DNA of 64,000 nt from Shinella sp. SUS2 (GTDB lineage Bacteria > Pseudomonadota > Alphaproteobacteria > Rhizobiales > Rhizobiaceae). Below are positions 16,293-25,282 of this stretch, one piece after another; within the stretch, counting starts at the first letter, position 1; the number at the start of each line of letters is the position of its first letter. The notes beneath the pieces were generated by a model. It saw only the letters and a list, made by a program, of their open reading frames with translations. It was not told where the DNA came from and ran no database searches. Made by a program: the position numbers and the translations under genes. The stretch is from NCBI RefSeq assembly GCF_001262505.1, contig NZ_KQ410741.1, forward strand, positions 62,001 through 126,000, written 5' to 3'.

Positions 16293-17546
16293 TTAGTGTG
16301 CGTTGACCTTCAGCTTGGCCTGTTCGAGCGACCAGTATTCCATGTCGAAGAGATCCGCCTCGCCGATGGGTGTGAAGCGACCGTAGGCTTCTGCGGCATT
16401 GATAGCCCGGGTTGCCTGCTCGCAGAGATCTCCGCCGATCTTGGCGGCCTTGTTGCTGGCGCCGAGGGCGTAGATTCCCTGTCCACGCACCAGCACGACG
16501 CGGGGATAGACGTCGAGCATCTGCTTCGGTTCGCTGGAGCGCGTCGCATTTCGTGCGAAGTAGACCCGGTAGCGGTCGGCATAGGCGGCAAGCGCCGCCT
16601 CGATCGCGGCTTCGTCCGCATCCGGCTCGATGATGAGCGGCCAAGGTTTGATGCGGATGACGTGATCCGGCGTGACGGTCCCGCGCAGGCTGATTGCCTC
16701 CACATTGTCTTTGGCGGCATGTTCGCGGATCGCCGCGGTGGAGCGGTAGTCGAGGAACGCACCTTTGGCGAAGGGCGATCCTTCACGGACGAGGGCTTTC
16801 TCCAGCCGCGCCCGCAGCGCCATGTCCTCGGTGCCATCACTTAGCTGCGGGCCGGAGAGCGCAACGCCCTTACGGGCAAGCTCGCTCTCGGCCATGGTGA
16901 CGAATTCGATCATCAGCTCGTAGGAAAGACGGGCATCATCGGCGAAGGTGAAGAGGCCGTGATTTTCCAGCCAGAGACCCTGGCAGCCTGGATGCTCACG
17001 GTAAATGCGGTCGGCAACGATGGAAAGATCGAAACCGGGCATGACATAGGGCACGTAGGCGAGGCGATCTCCATAGATATGCCTGACGGTCTCGCGCATA
17101 TCAGGCTGGTCGGCAAGCGCCAGGATCGCCGTGGCATGTGTGTGGTCCACGAAGGCGAACGGCAGGAAGGCGTGCAGCAGCGCCTCGACGGAAGGATTGG
17201 GCGCGTCCGCTTCGATCAGGCTGGCGCGCAGCAGCGAGACCATGTCCGGATCCGAGAGCTTCGGGCCGTCGCGGGTCTCCAGAAGCGGCACAAGGCGCAC
17301 CGCTGGCAGGCCCGGCGCTTCGATCGTGTCGAGATCCCAGCCGCTGCCCTTGATGTGCATGAGCGTTTCGCCGCCAGCGGACGTCACCTTGACGGACGTA
17401 TTGCCGCCGCCATGCAGCACGAGGTCGGGATCGCCACCGATGATGCGGGAGGTGTAGATGCGAAGGCCGAGGGCCTCGCTTTGTCCCGCCGCGCGCGCGG
17501 CCTCTACGTAGCGGGCTGCATCCCCGTCGTTCCAGCGGCTTTTCAT
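16293..17546 (-). CDS. Class II aldolase in the AI-2 locus (RhaD-like aldolase half)
   Basis: 417 aa of the class II aldolase/adducin fold, resembling the aldolase half of the bifunctional rhamnulose-phosphate aldolase/SDR proteins of rhizobia, but ending where the SDR half would begin. The zinc site is intact: Glu in PSVEALLHAFLP, the H-x-H in FVDHTHATAI and the third His in LENHGLFTF. It lies downstream of lsrB on the same strand, where E. coli has lsrF. I infer a retro-aldol cleavage of a phosphorylated AI-2 breakdown product; a separate sugar role is possible. ATG 17546 replaces an upstream frame opening at 17732 that runs through lsrB. Confidence 0.8.
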   Translation of the reverse strand: MKSRWNDGDAARYVEAARAAGQSEALGLRIYTSRIIGGDPDLVLHGGGNTSVKVTSAGGETLMHIKGSGWDLDTIEAPGLPAVRLVPLLETRDGPKLSDPDMVSLLRASLIEADAPNPSVEALLHAFLPFAFVDHTHATAILALADQPDMRETVRHIYGDRLAYVPYVMPGFDLSIVADRIYREHPGCQGLWLENHGLFTFADDARLSYELMIEFVTMAESELARKGVALSGPQLSDGTEDMALRARLEKALVREGSPFAKGAFLDYRSTAAIREHAAKDNVEAISLRGTVTPDHVIRIKPWPLIIEPDADEAAIEAALAAYADRYRVYFARNATRSSEPKQMLDVYPRVVLVRGQGIYALGASNKAAKIGGDLCEQATRAINAAEAYGRFTPIGEADLFDMEYWSLEQAKLKVNAH

Positions 17547-17565
17547 GCGTGTCGTCCTGTCCTTG

Positions 17566-17602
17566 AAAAAAGAATTCGGCGGGCAGCCGGAGCCGCCCGC
17601 CG
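17566..17602 (-). terminator. Intrinsic terminator after lsrB
   Basis: Read on the minus strand, CGGCGGGC-N10-GCCCGCCG is followed by AATTCTTTTTTC. An 8-bp GC-rich stem plus six T residues is the most canonical terminator in the window. It sits between the lsrB stop and the aldolase gene, so the aldolase would be made by read-through or its own promoter. Confidence 0.8.
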
Positions 17603-17613
17603 TCCATGCGTGA

Positions 17614-18645
17614 TCAGAAGTCGAAGTTTGCGATGTTGTCCTTCGTGAAGACGGTGCGTTCCGGCAGGAGGATGATTCCGTTGCCGTCGGCTTCGTAATC
17701 GTAGCCCTGCACCTTGTTGGCCGAGACCTCAACGGTGCCGATGCCGGGCACTTCCAGCTTGTCGCCGACCTTCATCGGGCCGTTCTTCAGGACGTGATCG
17801 GCAACGAAGACCGAAATCTTGCCCTGCTGGGTGACGTCCCACAGGCCGAAGCGCTGGATCGTGCCGCGTTCGATATAGGGGCGCATGACGTTCGGCGTGG
17901 AGAAGCCGACGATGGTGACGCCTTCTGCGCGCTTCAGGTTTTCCGCAGCCTGAGCGGCGGCCGGCAGGGCATTGGCGTCGGGCGCGATGATCGCGTCGAG
18001 ATCCGGATAGGTCTGGAGGATGCTTTCTGCCGTCTGCAGCGACTTCTGCGCATCATTGTAACCGTACTGGGTGGTGACAATTTCCCAGCCCGGGTGCTCC
18101 TTGGCGATCTTCGCCTTGGCCGCTTCCGCCCAGGCGTTCTGGTCGGTCACGGTGGGGCTCGAATAGAAGAAGGCGACCTTGGCCTTTTCCTTCGTCACGC
18201 CCTCCGCCGCCATGTCGACCAGAAGGCCGCCGAGCTGCTCGGGCGTACCCTGGTTGATGTAGTAGCTCCGGCAATCCGGGTTGACGTCGCTGTCCCAGGT
18301 CATGACGAGCACGCCGCGGTCCATGGCGCGCTTCAGTGCCGGGCACAGGCCGTCCGGAGAGACGGAGGAGACGATGAGCGCGTTGTAACCCTGGTTGACG
18401 AAGTTGTTGATAAACTGAACCTGACCGGAAACACTGGGCTCGGTCGGGCCGTCATAGGTGACCTTCGCGCCGACTTCCTCGCCGGCCTTCACGGCGCCGG
18501 CGCCGCCGGACGTGAAGAAGCCGACACCCACCAGCTTGGGGATGAAGGCGATCTGGTTTTCGGCATGTGCCGTGCCCGAAGCGAGCATGGTGCCGGCAAC
18601 AAGGGCCGCGGCGAGGGCGCTGGATTTCAGTACAGTCTTGATCAT
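17614..18645 (-). CDS. lsrB: AI-2 periplasmic binding protein LsrB
   Basis: 343-aa sugar-type binding protein with a signal peptide (cleavage near THA-ENQ). Its mature part closely follows the E. coli LsrB sequence as I remember it, including [57 protein letters not shown] and [11 protein letters not shown], which line the AI-2 pocket. It captures the furanosyl autoinducer AI-2 for import. AGGAGGAGA is best spaced for ATG 18645; ATG 18651 is two codons upstream. A strong terminator follows. Confidence 0.95.
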
Positions 18646-18647
18646 TC

Positions 18648-19661
18648 TCATTCTCCTCCTGAAGTGACTGCCGCCCGGGCTTGTTTTTTTTGCCGGGCGA
18701 CGGCGATGAAATCAGTCAACATTGCGCTTCCGTGGCGCAATGCGACCGCGACAACCAGCAACCCTCCCGAAAGTGCGCTGGAAATCTGGCTGGGCACGCC
18801 GGCTGCCTGCAGGCCTTGCTGCAGGTAGCCGATGACGAAGGTGGCGATGAGCGTGCCGAGGATGGATCCCTGGCCGCCATAGATGGAGGCACCGCCGAGC
18901 ACGGCCGCGGTAACGGCCGGCAGGAGCGTCGCCGAGCCGAGATCGACACGCGCGGAGCCGAAATAGGCTGACATGACGAGGCCGGCGATGGCGGCAGAGA
19001 CACCCGTGATGACATAGGTGATCGTCTGCACGCGGCCGACCGGGATGCCGGCGAAGCGCGCCGCGCTTTCCGACTGGCCCGAGAGGAAGATGGCACGGCC
19101 GAAGCGCGTGAAGTGCAGCAGCACGACCAGCACGAGGGAAAGGGCAAGGAAGAGGGCGAGAGGTGCCGGCAGGCCGAGAATTTCGGCATAACCGAAGGCA
19201 TTGAAGGCCTCCGGGAAGTTGCCGATGCCCTCATAGCCGCCCGCCCCCACGAGGCCGGAGGCGACCGTTGCCGTGCCCTGGAAGAGATAGAGGCTGCCGA
19301 GCGTGACGACGAGCGGCTGGATCTTCGACAGATGGATGACGGTGGCGTTGAGAAGGCCGCAGAGCGCGCCGGAGACGAGCGCAAGCGCAATCGAGAGCGG
19401 CAGGGGCACGCCATAGAAAGTGGCAACGCCGAAGACGATGGCGGCAAGACCAATCACGGAGGCGAAGGAGACGTCGATGCCGCCGGCGATGATGACGAGG
19501 GTCAGCGGCAGGGCGACGAGGCCGATCTGCACGAAATCCGACGTGCCGTAGATGAGGTTCGCGACATTGAGGAAGCGCGGATTGACGAGGCCGAAGATGA
19601 CGAGCTCGGCGACAAGCATGGCGAGGAGGGCGGTTTCCCAGCGGAAGATCAGCTTCTTCAT
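18648..19661 (-). CDS. lsrD: AI-2 ABC transporter permease LsrD
   Basis: 337-aa inner-membrane permease of the ribose/RbsC family with about eight to ten hydrophobic segments; the conserved segment [20 protein letters not shown] lies near residue 58. It forms the membrane channel for AI-2 together with LsrC. Its ATG overlaps the lsrC stop (ATGA) and its stop touches the lsrB start region, giving the order lsrA-C-D-B as in enteric bacteria. Assignment as LsrD rather than C rests on order and adjacency to lsrB. Confidence 0.88.
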
Positions 19662-20689
19662 CGGCCTGCCTCCACAGTGCGCGCCGTCGTCGTTTCGGTG
19701 GATGGGACAGGGCTGCGCTCGTGCACGGCGTAGCGGCGGGCGCGGATGCGGCGGTCGATGATCTGGCGGATGCGCCCGTCGAGCAGCAGCACCGACAGCA
19801 GGATCGCGCCGGCGATGAAGTCGTTCCAGTAGGCGGGAATCTTCAGGAAAACGAGGGCGCTGTCGATCGAGGTGATGAAGATGACGGCGGAAAAGACACC
19901 GGCGACAGAGCCCGTGCCGCCGAGCAGACTTACTCCGCCGAGCACGTTGACGGCGATCGCCTTCAGTTCGATACCACTGCCGGCCTGATTGGGAATGAAG
20001 CCGATCTGGGCGGCGAAGACGAGGCCGGCGAGCGCCGCGCAGAGGCCCGTCGCAATGAAGGCGGTAAACTGCACGCGCTTGACGGGTACGCCAAGATGGT
20101 GCGCGGCCGCGCGATTGTCGCCGACGGCATAGAAGTAGCGACCAAAGCGCGTCTTGCGCAGCACCAGCCAGGCAAGCACGACGAGAACGAGAACGACGAT
20201 CGTCAGCGCCGAAAAGCCGAGGCCGAGATTGGCAGCGAGCCCCTTCAGGTCTTGTGGCAAATCCTCGATCCAGCGACCACCGGTCAGGACCAGCATGATG
20301 CCGCGATAGAGGCCGAGCGTGCCGAGGGTGGCGACGATGGAGGGGATGCCGAGATAGGCGACCATCAACCCGTTGAAGGCACCGGCGAGCGCGCCGGTCG
20401 CAAGGCAGAAGGCGATGGCGAGTGGCAGGCCGATGCCCGCATTGAGCGAGAGGCCGAGCACAGCGGCGCTGAGGCCGAGCACCGAGCCGCTCGACACGTC
20501 AATGTTCCGTGTCAGGATGACGATCATCGTGCCGAGGGAGATCAGCATCAGGACGAGGCTGTTGGAGAGGACGACCGAGGCGGTGGCGCCGGAGAGGTAG
20601 CCGGGTGCCGCAGCGCCGATGGCGACATAGGCAATGGCAAGGACGACGATGAGTGTTGCGACGCGGTTGCGCGCGAAAAGGTCAAGCAT
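19658..20689 (-). CDS. lsrC: AI-2 ABC transporter permease LsrC
   Basis: 343-aa RbsC-family permease, with the conserved stretch [20 protein letters not shown] near residue 54 and VYHLGVP-like EAA equivalents around [19 protein letters not shown]. It should pair with LsrD. Start ATG 20689 overlaps the end of lsrA by eight bases; the frame is open upstream only within lsrA sequence. The hydrophilic C-terminal extension (about 25 residues) is unremarkable. Confidence 0.88.
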
Positions 20690-22184
20690 GGCGGGCCTCC
20701 GAGGCGCCGAAGGCGAGGCGGGCGATGGCATCGACCGAGATGTTTTCCGTGAGCTCCCCGCCGGATTGGCCAAACGCCATGACCTCGACGCGGTCGGCGA
20801 GCTGCTCGATCTCATCGAAATCGGACGAAATGAGAATGATGGCCACACCGTCGGCGGCGAGCTGGCGAATGAGGGTGTAGATGTCGTTGCGGGCCGCAAC
20901 GTCGACACCGCGCGTCGGCTCGTCGAGGATCAGCACCTTCGGCCGGGCCGAGAGGCACTTCGCCAGCAGCACCTTCTGCTGGTTGCCGCCGGAAAGGCCA
21001 CGGGCCTCCTGGCTGGCGCCGCTGCATTTGATGCCCATGCGGCTGCGGAATTCGTCGAACACTTTCCGCTCCGCGCCGGGTCTCAGGAAGAAGGGCAGGC
21101 GGTGAACGAGATAGGATGAGACGTTCCAGAAGAGCGGTGCCTCCAGGAACAGCCCGTGCTGCTGGCGGTCCTCCGGCAGATAGACGAGGCCGCGGTCGAT
21201 GCACAGTCGCGGCGACCGCTTCTTCAACTCCGCGCCGTCGTAAACGACGCTGCCGGCCGTCTGGGGGCGCAGGCCAAAGAGCGTCTCGGCGAACTCCGTG
21301 CGCCCGGCGCCCACAACGCCGGCAAGACCAAGGATCTCACCGGCCCGCACGTCAAGGCTGATATCGCGAAACCCTTCGCCGCTGAGCCGGCGCACGCTGA
21401 GGCGCGGCTTGCCAATTTGCGCGACCTTGCGGTCGGCGCGGTCCTTCCCGGAAGCGTCAGTGATCTGCACACGGCTCATCGCGTCGATGACCTCCGCGTC
21501 GGTGTAGCCATCGAGCGGGCCGGAAAGCACGATGACGCCGTCGCGCAGCACACTGATTGTTCCGCAAATCTCGCGGATCTCGCGCAGCTTATGCGAGATG
21601 AAGAAGATGCCGACGCCCTGCGCCTGCAATTTGCGCACGCGCTGGAAGAGGGCGCTCGTTTCGAACGGGGTGAGGGCGGAGGTGGGCTCATCGAGGATCA
21701 GCACGCGCGCATCACGCACGAGGCCGCGCAGGATCTCGACGATCTGCCGCTCGGCAATTTCCAAGGCGGCGGCCTGCGCATCCAGATCGAGCGATACCGA
21801 AAGTTCGGCGACCAGCTGTTCGACGCGCGGACGCAGCGCCCGAGGCGAGGCGGCAAGGCCAAGGCAGATGTTTTCCAGAACGCTCTGATTGGGCAGGATA
21901 TGCGCTTCCTGCGGCACGAGGTAGAGGCCAAGTTCCTGGGCATGGGCTGGCGATGCATGGGAAAGCGGCCGGCCATTGATCTCGATCGCACCGGAATTGG
22001 CTGGAATCACGCCGGACATGATCTTCATGAGGCTCGACTTGCCGGCACCGTTGCCGCCGAGAAGCGCATGCACCTCTCCAGCCTGCAAGGCAAGGGAAAC
22101 GCCCTTCAGCACCGGAACGGCGCCGTAGGACTTCCAGATGTCCGTCAGCTTCGCGACCCTCCCGGTCGTCGGGCTCCCAGTCAT
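20682..22184 (-). CDS. lsrA: AI-2 ABC transporter ATPase LsrA
   Basis: 500-aa tandem ATPase of the sugar-importer (RbsA) type. The first half has Walker A GGNGAGKSS, signature-region IAERQIVEILRGL and Walker B LILDEPTSALTPFE; the second has a degenerate Walker A region GVVGAGRTE, signature LSGGNQQKV and LILDEPTRGVD. This degeneracy is normal for the family. It energises AI-2 uptake through LsrC and LsrD. AGGTG lies seven bases before ATG 22184; ATG 22199 is an alternative. It heads the minus-strand operon, divergent from lsrR. Confidence 0.92.
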   Translation of the reverse strand: MTGSPTTGRVAKLTDIWKSYGAVPVLKGVSLALQAGEVHALLGGNGAGKSSLMKIMSGVIPANSGAIEINGRPLSHASPAHAQELGLYLVPQEAHILPNQSVLENICLGLAASPRALRPRVEQLVAELSVSLDLDAQAAALEIAERQIVEILRGLVRDARVLILDEPTSALTPFETSALFQRVRKLQAQGVGIFFISHKLREIREICGTISVLRDGVIVLSGPLDGYTDAEVIDAMSRVQITDASGKDRADRKVAQIGKPRLSVRRLSGEGFRDISLDVRAGEILGLAGVVGAGRTEFAETLFGLRPQTAGSVVYDGAELKKRSPRLCIDRGLVYLPEDRQQHGLFLEAPLFWNVSSYLVHRLPFFLRPGAERKVFDEFRSRMGIKCSGASQEARGLSGGNQQKVLLAKCLSARPKVLILDEPTRGVDVAARNDIYTLIRQLAADGVAIILISSDFDEIEQLADRVEVMAFGQSGGELTENISVDAIARLAFGASEARHA

Positions 22185-22219
22185 TCTGCACCTGTTCATA
22201 TGTAATTCACTGCAATCAT

Positions 22220-22400
22220 GTGATCATAGTGATTGGTAGCCGTCAATATGCTCAGAACATAATCCGAGGCGATGGAGTGCCGATATTGCGCTGCAAAATA
22301 TGATTTATCAGCGGAAATCAATGAATTGCGGTCAACAAGAATTTTTCACCGCGTTGACGCGTTGACGTATCAAAAGTTTTTTTGCTATTCAAATGATCAC
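22220..22400. promoter_or_regulatory. lsrA-lsrR divergent control region with paired TGATCAC sites
   Basis: Two inverted copies of ATGATCAC (22220-22227 as GTGATCAT and 22393-22400) flank the intergenic region. For lsrR a promoter TTGACG (22362-22367)-N18-TATTCA (22386-22391) is visible, with the second site two bases downstream of its -10, where a repressor would block transcription. The first site lies about 36 bases upstream of the lsrA start. These are candidate LsrR operators; LsrR of E. coli is released by phospho-AI-2. Confidence 0.55.
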
Positions 22401-22424
22401 AAATGGACCGAGGGAGCCGCTTGC

Positions 22425-23372
22425 ATGGCGTCGGACAACGGGGAATGGAGCTACGCCGATACGGACGAGGAGATCCTCACCCGCATCGCTTGGTATTACT
22501 ACAACGACGGCCTCACGCAGAACGAGATCGGCGAGAAGCTCAACATGTCTCGCATCAAGGTGTCGCGCCTGCTGGAGAGTGGCCGTCGCTCGGGCATCAT
22601 TCAGGTGCGCATCAATTCGCGCTATCAGGGATGCCTTGCGCTGGAGCGGCAGATCAAGGAGCGCTACGGGCTGCTCGAAGCCTATGTGGTGCCCCAGCTC
22701 CCCGATCAGGACCCGAGCGACCGGCTCGGCCAGGCGGCCGCGCAATTCCTCATGCAGCGGTTGCAGACGAACGATCTTCTTGCTGTCGGCTGGGGCGCGA
22801 CAGTCTCGAACACCATTCAGCGGCTGGGTCATCTCGCCAACGAGCGTAATATCGGCCTCGTCAGCCTTACCGGCGGTGTCGGCACCTACGTCGACGGCAT
22901 GCGCACGGCCAATTGGGGCAGCGGCGTGCATCTCGTGCCCGCGCCGCTTGTCGTGCGCGACCCGGATGTGGCGCGTAATCTTTCTTCCGAGCCGGCGGTC
23001 GCAAACCTCCTCGACATGGCGCTAAACGCCACCTACCAGCTCGTCGGCATCGGCGAACTTTCCTCCGCTTCGACGGTGGTCCGATCCGGCTATGTCAGCC
23101 CCGACGAGGTGGAGCCGCTGCGCCGCAAGGGTGCCGTTGGCGACATTCTCTGCCAGTTCTACAACGAGCGCGGCGAGCCGCTTGACCTGCCCCTGCACGA
23201 CCGGGTGATCGGCGTGAAGCTTGCGGCGCTGTCGCGCGCGGAAAAGGTTGTGGCGGCGGCAGGCGGCGTCCAGAAGGTGCAGGCCATCCACGCGGCGCTG
23301 CGCGGAAAGTTCGTCGGCATCCTCATCACCGACGAGACAACGGCCGCCGGCCTCATCGAGATCAAGGACTGA
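22425..23372 (+). CDS. lsrR: SorC/DeoR-family repressor LsrR
   Basis: 315 aa, the length of enteric LsrR. An N-terminal helix-turn-helix is clear (LTQNEIGEKLNMSRIKVSRL, residues about 32-51), followed by the SorC sugar-phosphate-binding domain (LLAVGWGATVSNTI, SLTGGVGTYV). It should repress both lsr operons and be released by phosphorylated AI-2. Start ATG 22425 follows GAGGGAG; the frame is open to 22272 but that part covers the promoter and operator. lsrK begins three bases after its stop. Confidence 0.92.
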   Translation: MASDNGEWSYADTDEEILTRIAWYYYNDGLTQNEIGEKLNMSRIKVSRLLESGRRSGIIQVRINSRYQGCLALERQIKERYGLLEAYVVPQLPDQDPSDRLGQAAAQFLMQRLQTNDLLAVGWGATVSNTIQRLGHLANERNIGLVSLTGGVGTYVDGMRTANWGSGVHLVPAPLVVRDPDVARNLSSEPAVANLLDMALNATYQLVGIGELSSASTVVRSGYVSPDEVEPLRRKGAVGDILCQFYNERGEPLDLPLHDRVIGVKLAALSRAEKVVAAAGGVQKVQAIHAALRGKFVGILITDETTAAGLIEIKD

Positions 23373-23375
23373 ACC

Positions 23376-24938
23376 ATGACGACTTCCTATCTGCTGGCCG
23401 TCGATGCCGGCACCGGCAGCGGCCGTGCCGTGATCTTCGACGAAAACGGCAACCAGATCGCCAGCGCCCAACACGAATGGTGGCACAAGACCGATCCGCG
23501 GTTTTCCGGCTCGATGGACTTCGATGTAGAGGGCAACTGGTCGCTCCTATCGCGCGCCATCCGGCAGGCGATCGCCGAGGCAGGCATTTCGGCCGCCGAT
23601 ATCCGCGCAGTCAGTGCCACCAGCATGCGCGAGGCCTTCGTCGCCTATGATCGCAACGGCCGTGAGATCTGGGCCTGTGCCAACGTCGACAGCCGTGCCG
23701 TCAGCGAAGTGCGCGACCTCAAGCGCGATTTTCCCGGCCTCGAGCGCGACCTCTACGTTGAGACCGGCCAGACCTTCGCACTTGGCGCGCTGCCGCGCCT
23801 TCTCTGGCTCAAATGCAACCTTCCGGATGTTTATGCGCGTATCGACCGGATCAGCATGCTCTCCGACTGGGTGCTCGCGCGGCTTTCCGGGGTCATCGCC
23901 AGCGATCCCTCCAATGCCGGCACCACCGGCCTCTACAGCCTGACAAAGCGTGGCTGGTTGCCAGAGGCGATGGCAAAGGCCGGCATGCGTGACGACATCT
24001 TCCCCGAGAGCGTCGAACCCGGCACGGTTATCGGCCGGGTGACTGAAAGGGCGGCGGATGAGACCGGCCTCACAGCCGGCACGCCTGTTGTCATGGGAGG
24101 CGGCGACTGCCAAAGCGGCGCGGCGGCGATCGGCGTCGTCAATGAAGGCGATTGCGCCGTGCTCGGCGGCACTTTCTGGCAGCAGGTCGTGAATGTCGGC
24201 CCGTCCGTCTCCGACCCGTCGATGGATTTGCGCATCAATCCGCATGTTGTGACCGGTCTCAACCAGGCCGAAGCGATCAGCTTCTTCGTCGGCATCGTCA
24301 TGCGCTGGTTCCGCGACAGTTTTGGCGCGGAGGAGGTGGCCGCGGCTGGCCCAGGCGGCGATGCCTACCGGTTGCTGGAAGAAAAGGCGGCGGGTGTGCC
24401 CGTCGGCGCCTATGGCATCATTCCCGTCTTCTCCGACGTCATGCGCTACGGCAACTGGTACCATGCCGCGCCGTCGCTGCTGAACCTTTCCATCGATCCG
24501 CAAAAGTCGGGCAAGGCCGCGATTTTCCGCGCATTGCAGGAGAACGCAGCCATCGTGGCGGCCCGCAACCTTTCGGCCATCTTCAAGCTCTCCGGCAAGA
24601 CGCCCGACAAGATCGTCTTCGCTGCAGGTGCATCGAAATCTGCCCACTGGTCGCAGATCCTGTCGAGCGCCACCGGGCTTCCGGTCGTCACGCCCGTCGT
24701 CAAAGAAGCGACTGCGCTCGGCTGTGCGGCGGCGGCAGCGATCGGCATCGGCCTGCGCCGGGATTTCGTCGAGGCGGCAGAGGGCTGGGTGCGCTGGGAC
24801 AAGCGCTTCGAGCCGGATTTTGCGCACAAGGCCATCTATGACGAGGCGGGGGAACGCTGGGCGCGAGCCTATGCGCTGCAGCGCCAGCTCGTCGACGAAG
24901 GTGTCACCACGGCCATGTGGAAGGCGCCGGGCCTCTGA
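23376..24938 (+). CDS. lsrK: Autoinducer-2 kinase LsrK (FGGY family)
   Basis: 520-aa sugar kinase. The FGGY N-terminal phosphate-binding segment LLAVDAGTGSGRAVIFDENG is plain, with catalytic Asp context ALGALPRLLWLK and DPSNAGTTGLYSL, and the C-terminal ATP region VFAAGASKSAHWSQILSSAT. It phosphorylates AI-2 after import, trapping it and making the LsrR inducer. Only three bases separate it from lsrR and 38 from lsrG. Family, length and locus together make the assignment firm. Confidence 0.93.
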   Translation: MTTSYLLAVDAGTGSGRAVIFDENGNQIASAQHEWWHKTDPRFSGSMDFDVEGNWSLLSRAIRQAIAEAGISAADIRAVSATSMREAFVAYDRNGREIWACANVDSRAVSEVRDLKRDFPGLERDLYVETGQTFALGALPRLLWLKCNLPDVYARIDRISMLSDWVLARLSGVIASDPSNAGTTGLYSLTKRGWLPEAMAKAGMRDDIFPESVEPGTVIGRVTERAADETGLTAGTPVVMGGGDCQSGAAAIGVVNEGDCAVLGGTFWQQVVNVGPSVSDPSMDLRINPHVVTGLNQAEAISFFVGIVMRWFRDSFGAEEVAAAGPGGDAYRLLEEKAAGVPVGAYGIIPVFSDVMRYGNWYHAAPSLLNLSIDPQKSGKAAIFRALQENAAIVAARNLSAIFKLSGKTPDKIVFAAGASKSAHWSQILSSATGLPVVTPVVKEATALGCAAAAAIGIGLRRDFVEAAEGWVRWDKRFEPDFAHKAIYDEAGERWARAYALQRQLVDEGVTTAMWKAPGL

Positions 24939-24976
24939 TCGACTAACCGAAGATTCAACACAGCAGGGATTAAGAC

Positions 24977-25282
24977 ATGCTCATCCAGATGGTCAGCATC
25001 AACGTCAAGCAGGGCCATGCCGCAGAATTTCTGGAGGCATTCCGCATCAACTACGAAGGAACCCGCCGGGAGCCCGGCAATTTGCGCTTCGACGTGCTGC
25101 GCAACCCGGAAGACGACCACAGCTTCACGATCTATGAGGTCTTCACGTCCTCCGAAGCGCTCGACGAGCACCGTAAGACCCCGCATTATCAGGAATGCGT
25201 GCGCCGGATCGACCCGATCCTCGCCGGCCCGCGCACCAAGACGTTTTATGAGGTCGAGATGGCGGATTTTCTCAGCACCTGA
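24977..25282 (+). CDS. lsrG: Phospho-AI-2 isomerase LsrG (ABM family)
   Basis: 101-aa antibiotic-biosynthesis-monooxygenase fold protein. INVKQGHAAEFLEAFRINYE, the GNLRFDVLRNPED segment and TPHYQECVRRIDPIL match LsrG, which isomerises phosphorylated DPD so that the thiolase LsrF (in E. coli) can cleave it. CAGGGA precedes ATG 24977. It is the last gene of the lsrR-K-G operon; the next gene is convergent. No lsrF homologue lies nearby. Confidence 0.92.
   Translation: MLIQMVSINVKQGHAAEFLEAFRINYEGTRREPGNLRFDVLRNPEDDHSFTIYEVFTSSEALDEHRKTPHYQECVRRIDPILAGPRTKTFYEVEMADFLST

Follow-up and report, generated by a model that had tools for sequence, protein, structure and literature searches.

The lsr operons of Escherichia coli and Salmonella, which serve the uptake of the signal autoinducer-2 (AI-2), comprise lsrR, lsrK, lsrA, lsrC, lsrD, lsrB and lsrG, with a divergent regulator and the transporter genes in the order A-C-D-B, and in E. 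coli K-12 lsrF lies directly after lsrB. The product of LsrG is described as the hydrate P-TPO, which LsrF converts with coenzyme A (CoA) to dihydroxyacetone phosphate (DHAP) and acetyl-CoA (PMC8016206). In a 64,000-nucleotide stretch of the Shinella sp. SUS2 genome (contig NZ_KQ410741.1, positions 62,001 to 126,000; hereafter the window) we saw the same seven genes at positions 16293-25282 as two divergent sets, lsrR-K-G on the forward strand and lsrA-C-D-B on the reverse strand, the latter set including a stand-alone class II aldolase gene that we call ALD. Unlike the E. coli and Salmonella operons, the Shinella locus has no lsrF, carries ALD after lsrB and keeps lsrG with lsrR and lsrK, and there is no luxS in the genome.

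The pSymB locus of Sinorhizobium meliloti 1021 has the same eight genes in the same order, with LsrB 96.5% and ALD 81% identical to those of the window, and we found no difference in gene content between the two. S. meliloti reportedly responds to AI-2 supplied by other bacteria, a result attributed to Pereira et al. in 2008. The gene set lsrBDCARKG has been described in the luxS-negative S. meliloti and Rhodobacter sphaeroides, with eavesdropping proposed (Rezzonico and Duffy 2008, PMC2561040); their text never uses the term "aldolase". AI-2 uptake without luxS in rhizobia is therefore already published and is not new. New here is the constant presence of ALD at the place of lsrF in the alphaproteobacterial lsr loci that we examined, which is well supported as a genomic association. 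ALD as a stand-in for LsrF was not found in the excerpts of open-access literature searched, a weak negative because most subscription papers lie outside that literature.

The Shinella lsr locus and its aldolase

The locus was confirmed as a complete AI-2 uptake locus with all eight genes (Table 1), in line with a first-pass annotation that had recognised lsrA-C-D-B and lsrR-K-G. LsrB, LsrA, LsrK and, narrowly, LsrC scored above their curated NCBIfam cut-offs; LsrD, LsrR and LsrG scored below theirs, yet each had the model of its own name as its top match. The window LsrB is near-identical to that of S. meliloti (PDB 3ejw) and has all six putative AI-2 ligand residues (K39, D120, D170, Q171, P224 and A226), at positions given in the Salmonella and E. 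coli literature, and LsrG and LsrK match solved LsrG (2gff, 3qmq) and LsrK (5ya0) chains. Compared with the Lsr uptake system as defined, the locus has the LsrB ligand residues together with LsrA, LsrC and LsrD (LsrD under cut-off), and LsrK and LsrR divergent from the transporter genes (LsrR under cut-off); of the pair that processes phospho-AI-2, LsrG and LsrF, it has LsrG only, itself under cut-off. Since LsrG is present and LsrF is absent from both locus and genome, we regard this as a variant Lsr system lacking LsrF. The eight-gene set is not a product of chance, because the same set recurs in tens of genomes.

The absence of lsrF, noted in the first-pass annotation, and that of luxS, expected there for rhizobia as a rule, were borne out by searches of the host genome. 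In the assembly (7.0 Mb in 109 contigs, contamination rated 5.39%) there were no LuxS matches and no LsrF above cut-off, the best score against the LsrF model NF006081 being 105 bits relative to a cut-off of 297. The locus is not a stray contaminant, since LsrB is also found in six other genomes of the same genus in our sample; ALD itself is nearest to aldolases of Shinella. We rejected a hidden LsrF elsewhere in the host, as neither the PF01791 candidates nor the whole-genome search gave one above cut-off. Three of the host's four PF01791 proteins, L001 and L003 among them, were scanned against NCBIfam and fell far under the LsrF cut-off, and the fourth, L002, is deoC-like and, going by its gene neighbours, presumably belongs to a nucleoside-salvage cluster. 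A terminal thiolase could still be sought in a distant DeoC/DhnA-type protein such as L001 or L003 (105 and 95 bits against the LsrF model), with ALD as an auxiliary. We find this very unlikely: both are far under 297, both score higher against 2-amino-3,7-dideoxy-heptulosonate synthase models than against LsrF, neither is in the lsr locus, and 8 of 22 LsrB-positive Rhizobiaceae have no match to the LsrF model at all (E-value of 0.001 or less).

In Pfam, ALD matches Aldolase_II (PF00596) only. An alignment with FucA, RhaD and YgbL of E. coli puts its H135, H137 and H196 at the metal-ligand positions, so that the metal site is intact as first noted, and its E121 at the catalytic base, and N49, S68, G69 and S119 align with the DHAP-phosphate site of FucA and RhaD; the roles of these eight residues are those presumed for the family. 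The neighbouring position, S72 in FucA, is V120 in ALD and I or V in its fused kin (see below). The eight residues are invariant in 43 sequences, and ALD has every feature of the class II (aldolase II) DHAP aldolases that we looked for, namely the three His metal ligands, the catalytic Glu and the DHAP-phosphate residues. It is under purifying selection, with a ratio of nonsynonymous to synonymous substitution rates (dN/dS) of 0.06-0.26 in seven pairs, and among the eight locus proteins it changes fastest in all seven.

The AlphaFold model of ALD has a mean predicted local distance difference test (pLDDT) score of 90.9. By Foldseek its best solved match was the N-terminal aldolase domain 3m4r (35% identity), followed by the aldolase II protein 3ocr and by entries for FucA and YgbL; RhaD, DrdA and a few oxygenases ranked lower. 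The oxygenases of the same fold were pyruvic oxime dioxygenase, NovR and TqaM, and they could suggest that ALD is an oxygen-using enzyme that cleaves a diketone oxidatively. We consider this highly improbable, the top structural match being an aldolase domain and the DHAP-phosphate and base residues being present.

Across the alphaproteobacterial lsr loci that we examined, ALD alone was constantly present as an eighth gene. Our locus set was the best 80 of 363 confirmed stretches encoding ALD relatives. Forty-seven of the 80 have a stand-alone ALD in an lsr-type locus, 45 of them directly after lsrB and two (L060 and L061) otherwise arranged; the remainder are four stand-alone ALDs elsewhere (L062-L065), one damaged gene without lsr genes (L057), 26 dehydrogenase fusions and two unclassed loci at contig ends (L083 and L084). 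ALD was directly after lsrB in four plasmid loci as well. The named families of the lsr-type rows (Rhizobiaceae, Kaistiaceae, Devosiaceae, Aurantimonadaceae, Stappiaceae, Thalassospiraceae, Paracoccaceae and Roseobacteraceae) place the same aldolase in other Hyphomicrobiales and beyond, which answers a check suggested in the first-pass annotation. With E. coli LsrF as query, none of the 80 loci gave a match within the fetched flanks, E. coli K-12 (L096) being the positive control. In a plasmid collection, all 11 Enterobacteriaceae records with LsrB at 80% identity or more (E. coli, Salmonella, Enterobacter and Klebsiella) have lsrF beside it. In the 4 kb that flank 46 lsr loci on each side, as far as contigs reach and with L030, L031, L049, L060, L061 and L067 left out, crude gene calls gave no further gene in more than eight loci; the commonest flanking group, in 8 of the 46, looked by eye like an ATP-binding cassette (ABC) ATPase. 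The damaged gene without lsr genes lies at L057:10001-11019 in Rhizobium sp. 18065.

Among 394 Rhizobiaceae genomes, LsrB (E-value of 1e-120 or less) was found in 22 and ALD at 73% identity or more in 17, all 17 within the LsrB-positive set and each with ALD about 70-80 nt after lsrB; these searches score a few candidates per genome and may miss some. LuxS was found in none of the 22. LsrF above cut-off was found in three (G535, G597 and G699), each time in another operon and never in the lsr locus. The possibility of an lsrF under the same regulator, raised at the outset, found no support in the host, where none exceeded the cut-off. Of the five genomes without ALD, two have LsrF elsewhere and three have neither. 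Small as the numbers are, this distribution leans toward substitution of one enzyme by the other. E. coli, among the 14 control genomes, fell under the LsrB and LsrF cut-offs, so the survey has no positive control there, and a class-wide LsrB search, with 1 of 385 over cut-off, was of no use for counting.

Fused relatives and looser arrangements of ALD

In all 26 classable loci with relatives at 49% identity or less, the aldolase continues in the same chain into a dehydrogenase part of 254-259 residues at the C-terminus. The lsr-locus ALDs stop 0-3 residues past the match and have no dehydrogenase domain, and ALD scored at best 464 against the bifunctional aldolase/short-chain dehydrogenase model, for which the cut-off is 639. 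In these bifunctional proteins (PRK08324 families, RhaD-SDR type) the aldolase half is 44-49% identical to ALD and has the same metal and DHAP residues; unlike them, ALD consists of the aldolase part only and is encoded together with LsrK and LsrG. Of the 26 fused genes, 21 have MtnA close by and 15 have MtnK too (models scanned in L066 and L074), whereas neither was found in any of the 52 lsr ALD loci, which on this count are not DHAP-shunt clusters. In that pathway MtnK and MtnA give a 1-phospho-pentulose, from which a class II aldolase releases DHAP and an aldehyde (PMC6079011; PMC6302742), so that it shares its kinase, isomerase and aldolase logic with the ALD locus. The Shinella host has a locus of this kind too (L105, C17:50000-69000), with MtnK, MtnA, a fused aldolase-dehydrogenase, a SorC-type regulator and an ABC transporter, which is likely a 5-deoxypentose DHAP-shunt cluster. 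The 5-deoxyribulose-1-phosphate aldolase DrdA (PDB 6btd) is like ALD in its class II aldolase fold and cuts a phosphopentulose to DHAP (PMC6079011); it differs in being a manganese enzyme, has 203 residues in the structure and is 17% identical to ALD when the two structures are aligned.

A tree separated the stand-alone ALDs (51 from lsr loci and 4 others) from 27 fused rows (the 26 and that of the host) with split support of 100/99, and the four non-lsr rows fell inside the stand-alone group, with L060 and L061. Tree and alignment were made without L008 (the window copy), L067 and L083 (cut by contig ends), L057 (a damaged relic), L084 (contig ending 17 codons past the match), L010, L011 and L101. 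It is likely, though not firm on so weakly rooted a tree, that the dehydrogenase half was lost in ALD rather than gained by the others.

Three further genomes of the 394, all outside the LsrB-positive 22, have a stand-alone ALD at 53-54% identity. One of them (L107) has the LsrG-less arrangement described below. In the other two (L106 and L108), as in L060 from Stappia, LsrR, LsrK, LsrG and ALD are together in a locus that has no LsrB and a different ABC transporter. These three loci also have an RbsD-like protein directly before lsrG and an LVIVD-repeat protein (models scanned in L060, the others by similarity). The latter, a beta-propeller protein, lies at L060:3437-4699, L106:15650-16966, L108:6947-8206 and L103:1041-2294; the copies are 67-85% identical to that of L060, and stand beside lsrK in the three LsrB-less loci and beside lsrB in L103.

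A proposed last step of AI-2 breakdown

On balance we favour the view that the window carries an AI-2 scavenging operon of a luxS-less member of the Rhizobiaceae in which ALD most likely performs the last step of LsrF, giving DHAP and acetate; we infer this substrate and these products from the observed gene content, conservation, position, residues and kinship of ALD. By family homology LsrB-A-C-D would import AI-2, LsrK would phosphorylate it, LsrR would respond to phospho-AI-2, and LsrG would isomerise phospho-AI-2 to 3-hydroxy-5-phosphonooxypentane-2,4-dione (P-HPD), which is the unhydrated LsrG product given by NCBI's name for LsrF. ALD would then act in place of the CoA-dependent thiolase LsrF of E. 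coli: its metal may hold the C3 and C4 oxygens of P-HPD as with the DHAP enediolate, with E121 as base, and the C2-C3 bond would be broken with water at C2, in a hydrolytic retro-Claisen reaction, to DHAP and acetate. ALD would derive from, or share an ancestor with, the aldolase half of a fusion acting on 5-deoxy- or 5-methylthio-ribulose-1-phosphate.

The first-pass annotation had suggested that ALD may break down phospho-AI-2 by retro-aldol cleavage. An alternative breakdown by ALD is plausible, and the plain retro-aldol needs refining: we set it aside because the LsrG product is a beta-diketone, of which only the hydrate or a reduced form would be cleavable, so a direct cut would have to act on the hydrate (gem-diol), with acetate and not an aldehyde as the product released. 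Going by the drawn structures, P-HPD is the 4-oxo analogue of 5-deoxyribulose-1-phosphate. LsrG would make the ketone beside the phosphate that DHAP aldolases bind, which is absent earlier, and the kinase, isomerase and aldolase steps would therefore match in both pathways; with a ketone in place of the hydroxyl at C4, cleavage would need water and yield acetate. Since no aldehyde would be released, a dehydrogenase half would not be needed, which would explain its absence from ALD. We know of no retro-Claisen activity in the aldolase II family. A DHAP-forming 3-oxo decarboxylase, OtnC, already belongs to that family (PMC12540250); it is like ALD in having an aldolase II domain with conserved metal and base residues and in giving DHAP, from a 3-oxo-4-phosphate, and differs from what we propose in releasing CO2 and not an acyl group. 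LsrF would share with ALD its substrate, its DHAP product and its operon position, and it differs in its unrelated fold (a class I aldolase-type barrel, PMC2728841), its dependence on CoA and its yielding of acetyl-CoA and not acetate.

Instead, a distant oxidoreductase might reduce P-HPD at C2 to a 5-deoxypentulose-1-phosphate, and ALD would then split this by a plain retro-aldol reaction into DHAP and acetaldehyde, much as the DHAP shunt does. This would suit an enzyme whose kin are fused proteins of MtnK-MtnA clusters with DHAP and an aldehyde as expected products (PMC6079011), but we think it unlikely, as ALD is without the dehydrogenase that its kin carry fused to the aldolase, and no dehydrogenase is widely common within 4 kb of the 46 lsr loci, the commonest by eye, of the short-chain type, being in 5 of the 46 (2.8 kb off in one example). 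It is also quite unlikely, in our estimate, that ALD cuts some other sugar phosphate (e.g., of a 5-deoxy sugar) brought in through this transporter while phospho-AI-2 is merely isomerised. The LsrG-less operons described below, with a stand-alone ALD and an LsrK-like kinase, would fit such a role; however, the position of ALD in the lsr operon is conserved, and ALD stays with LsrG and LsrK even under another transporter. The fused paralogue that the host already has, with MtnK and MtnA, also speaks for the other sugar.

For alphaproteobacteria, the proposed hydrolytic cleavage by ALD would put a named gene, a substrate and products to the last AI-2 step. If true, it would link signal quenching to 5-deoxypentose salvage, would show two unrelated enzymes carrying out a single step of a pathway from the same place in the operon, and would change models of AI-2 removal by root-associated bacteria, acetate being made instead of acetyl-CoA. 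A broader version, which we hold to be nearly as likely as not, is that alphaproteobacteria finish AI-2 breakdown with a metal-dependent class II aldolase that came from 5-deoxypentose salvage. After loss of its dehydrogenase half this enzyme would hydrolyse the C2-C3 bond of the LsrG product to DHAP and acetate, and LsrK, LsrG and ALD would form a movable core able to combine with various importers.

Several observations weigh against the AI-2 role of ALD. First, ALD is absent beside lsrB in 5 of the 22 LsrB-positive Rhizobiaceae (G459, G465, G535, G559 and G597), and would therefore be dispensable or replaceable. The contig of G459 begins 1.7 kb from lsrB, with no ALD in between, the contig of G465 is only 3.6 kb long, G559 has a 51-residue ALD remnant after lsrB (L104:8629-8781), and G535 and G597 have another lsr subtype with lsrG ahead of lsrA. 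G699, 1 of the 17 genomes with ALD, holds a distant LsrF as well. Second, four Rhodobacterales loci (L062-L065) and one of Rhizobiaceae (L107) have a stand-alone ALD (50-54%) and no LsrG, so AI-2 is not the only context in which a stand-alone ALD occurs. Beside ALD these have a kinase only 37% like LsrK, and a 2-hydroxyacid dehydrogenase-like protein belongs to the type (scanned in L063), with a VOC-like protein in L062 and L063; detailed gene lists cover L062, L063 and L107. This operon may encode a related pathway that acts on a different diketo or deoxy sugar. Third, only seven positions distinguish the lsr ALDs from the fused enzymes at the thresholds used, and when two fused outgroups with very long branches were added (22 of the 55 stand-alone and 14 of the 27 fused rows), the stand-alone group was recovered in about 70% of bootstrap trees (69/91). 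Fourth, the hydrate could instead be cut at C3-C4, giving phosphoglycolate and hydroxyacetone, and an early report of phosphoglycolate from LsrG is cited in PMC2728841. Last, a terminator-like hairpin between lsrB and ALD leaves co-transcription of the two unproven.

The hairpin recurs, with sequences that vary between families: of 50 loci with adjacent lsrB and ALD, 45 have an unbroken stem of at least 7 pairs, four a bulged stem and one (L051) another fold. We did not accept it as a firm operon end, though it may be one; a T-rich tail, present in 17 of the 45 unbroken-stem loci including the window, is missing in the other 28. Terminator-like sites in the whole stretch numbered 7 relative to 6.7 expected from shuffles.

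Feature coordinates and LsrF homologues outside lsr loci

Table 1. Features of the lsr locus, in positions of the window, with the support for each
Feature	Position	Strand	Support
ALD, stand-alone class II aldolase, 417 aa, where lsrF would be	16293..17546	-	Pfam PF00596; AlphaFold model; dN/dS
GC-rich hairpin and T-rich tail, between lsrB and ALD	17577..17602	-	terminator-like site prediction
lsrB, AI-2 binding protein	17614..18651	-	NCBIfam 636 bits (cut-off 384); PDB 3ejw; ligand residues
lsrD, permease	18648..19661	-	best NCBIfam model LsrD, 386 bits, under cut-off 500
lsrC, permease	19658..20689	-	NCBIfam LsrC 389.5 bits, cut-off 388 (narrow pass, full-length protein)
lsrA, ATPase	20682..22199	-	NCBIfam 728 bits, cut-off 586
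divergent lsrA-lsrR intergenic region, presumed operator/promoter	22200..22424	.	position only
lsrR, SorC/DeoR-type regulator	22425..23372	+	best NCBIfam model LsrR, 318 bits, under cut-off 486
lsrK, AI-2 kinase	23376..24938	+	NCBIfam 845 bits, cut-off 528; PDB 5ya0
lsrG, phospho-AI-2 isomerase	24977..25282	+	best NCBIfam model LsrG, 108 bits, under cut-off 135; PDB 2gff, 3qmq

The three LsrF homologues above cut-off had neighbours of two kinds. Beside that of G535 were DhaK, DhaL and a short-chain dehydrogenase (domains scanned), beside that of G597 DhaK- and DhaL-like genes, by eye, and beside that of G699 a fused aldolase-dehydrogenase and an FGGY-type kinase. An LsrF above the curated cut-off need not imply AI-2. 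Loci of the DhaK/DhaL type are at L098:5923-9318 (with a short-chain dehydrogenase) and L100:7761-10365 (neighbours by eye), far from lsr, their LsrF being 70-72% identical to that of E. coli. We considered the "putative Lsr system in Rhizobiales" of PMC3420918 as a locus of the window type and set it aside, as it looks instead like an operon with an FGGY-type kinase, an LsrF-like protein and a fused aldolase, of the type of L101. In L101 itself (L101:1049-9418), from a genome of the same genus as the host, an LsrF homologue occurs together with a fused aldolase-dehydrogenase, an ABC transporter and an FGGY-type kinase.

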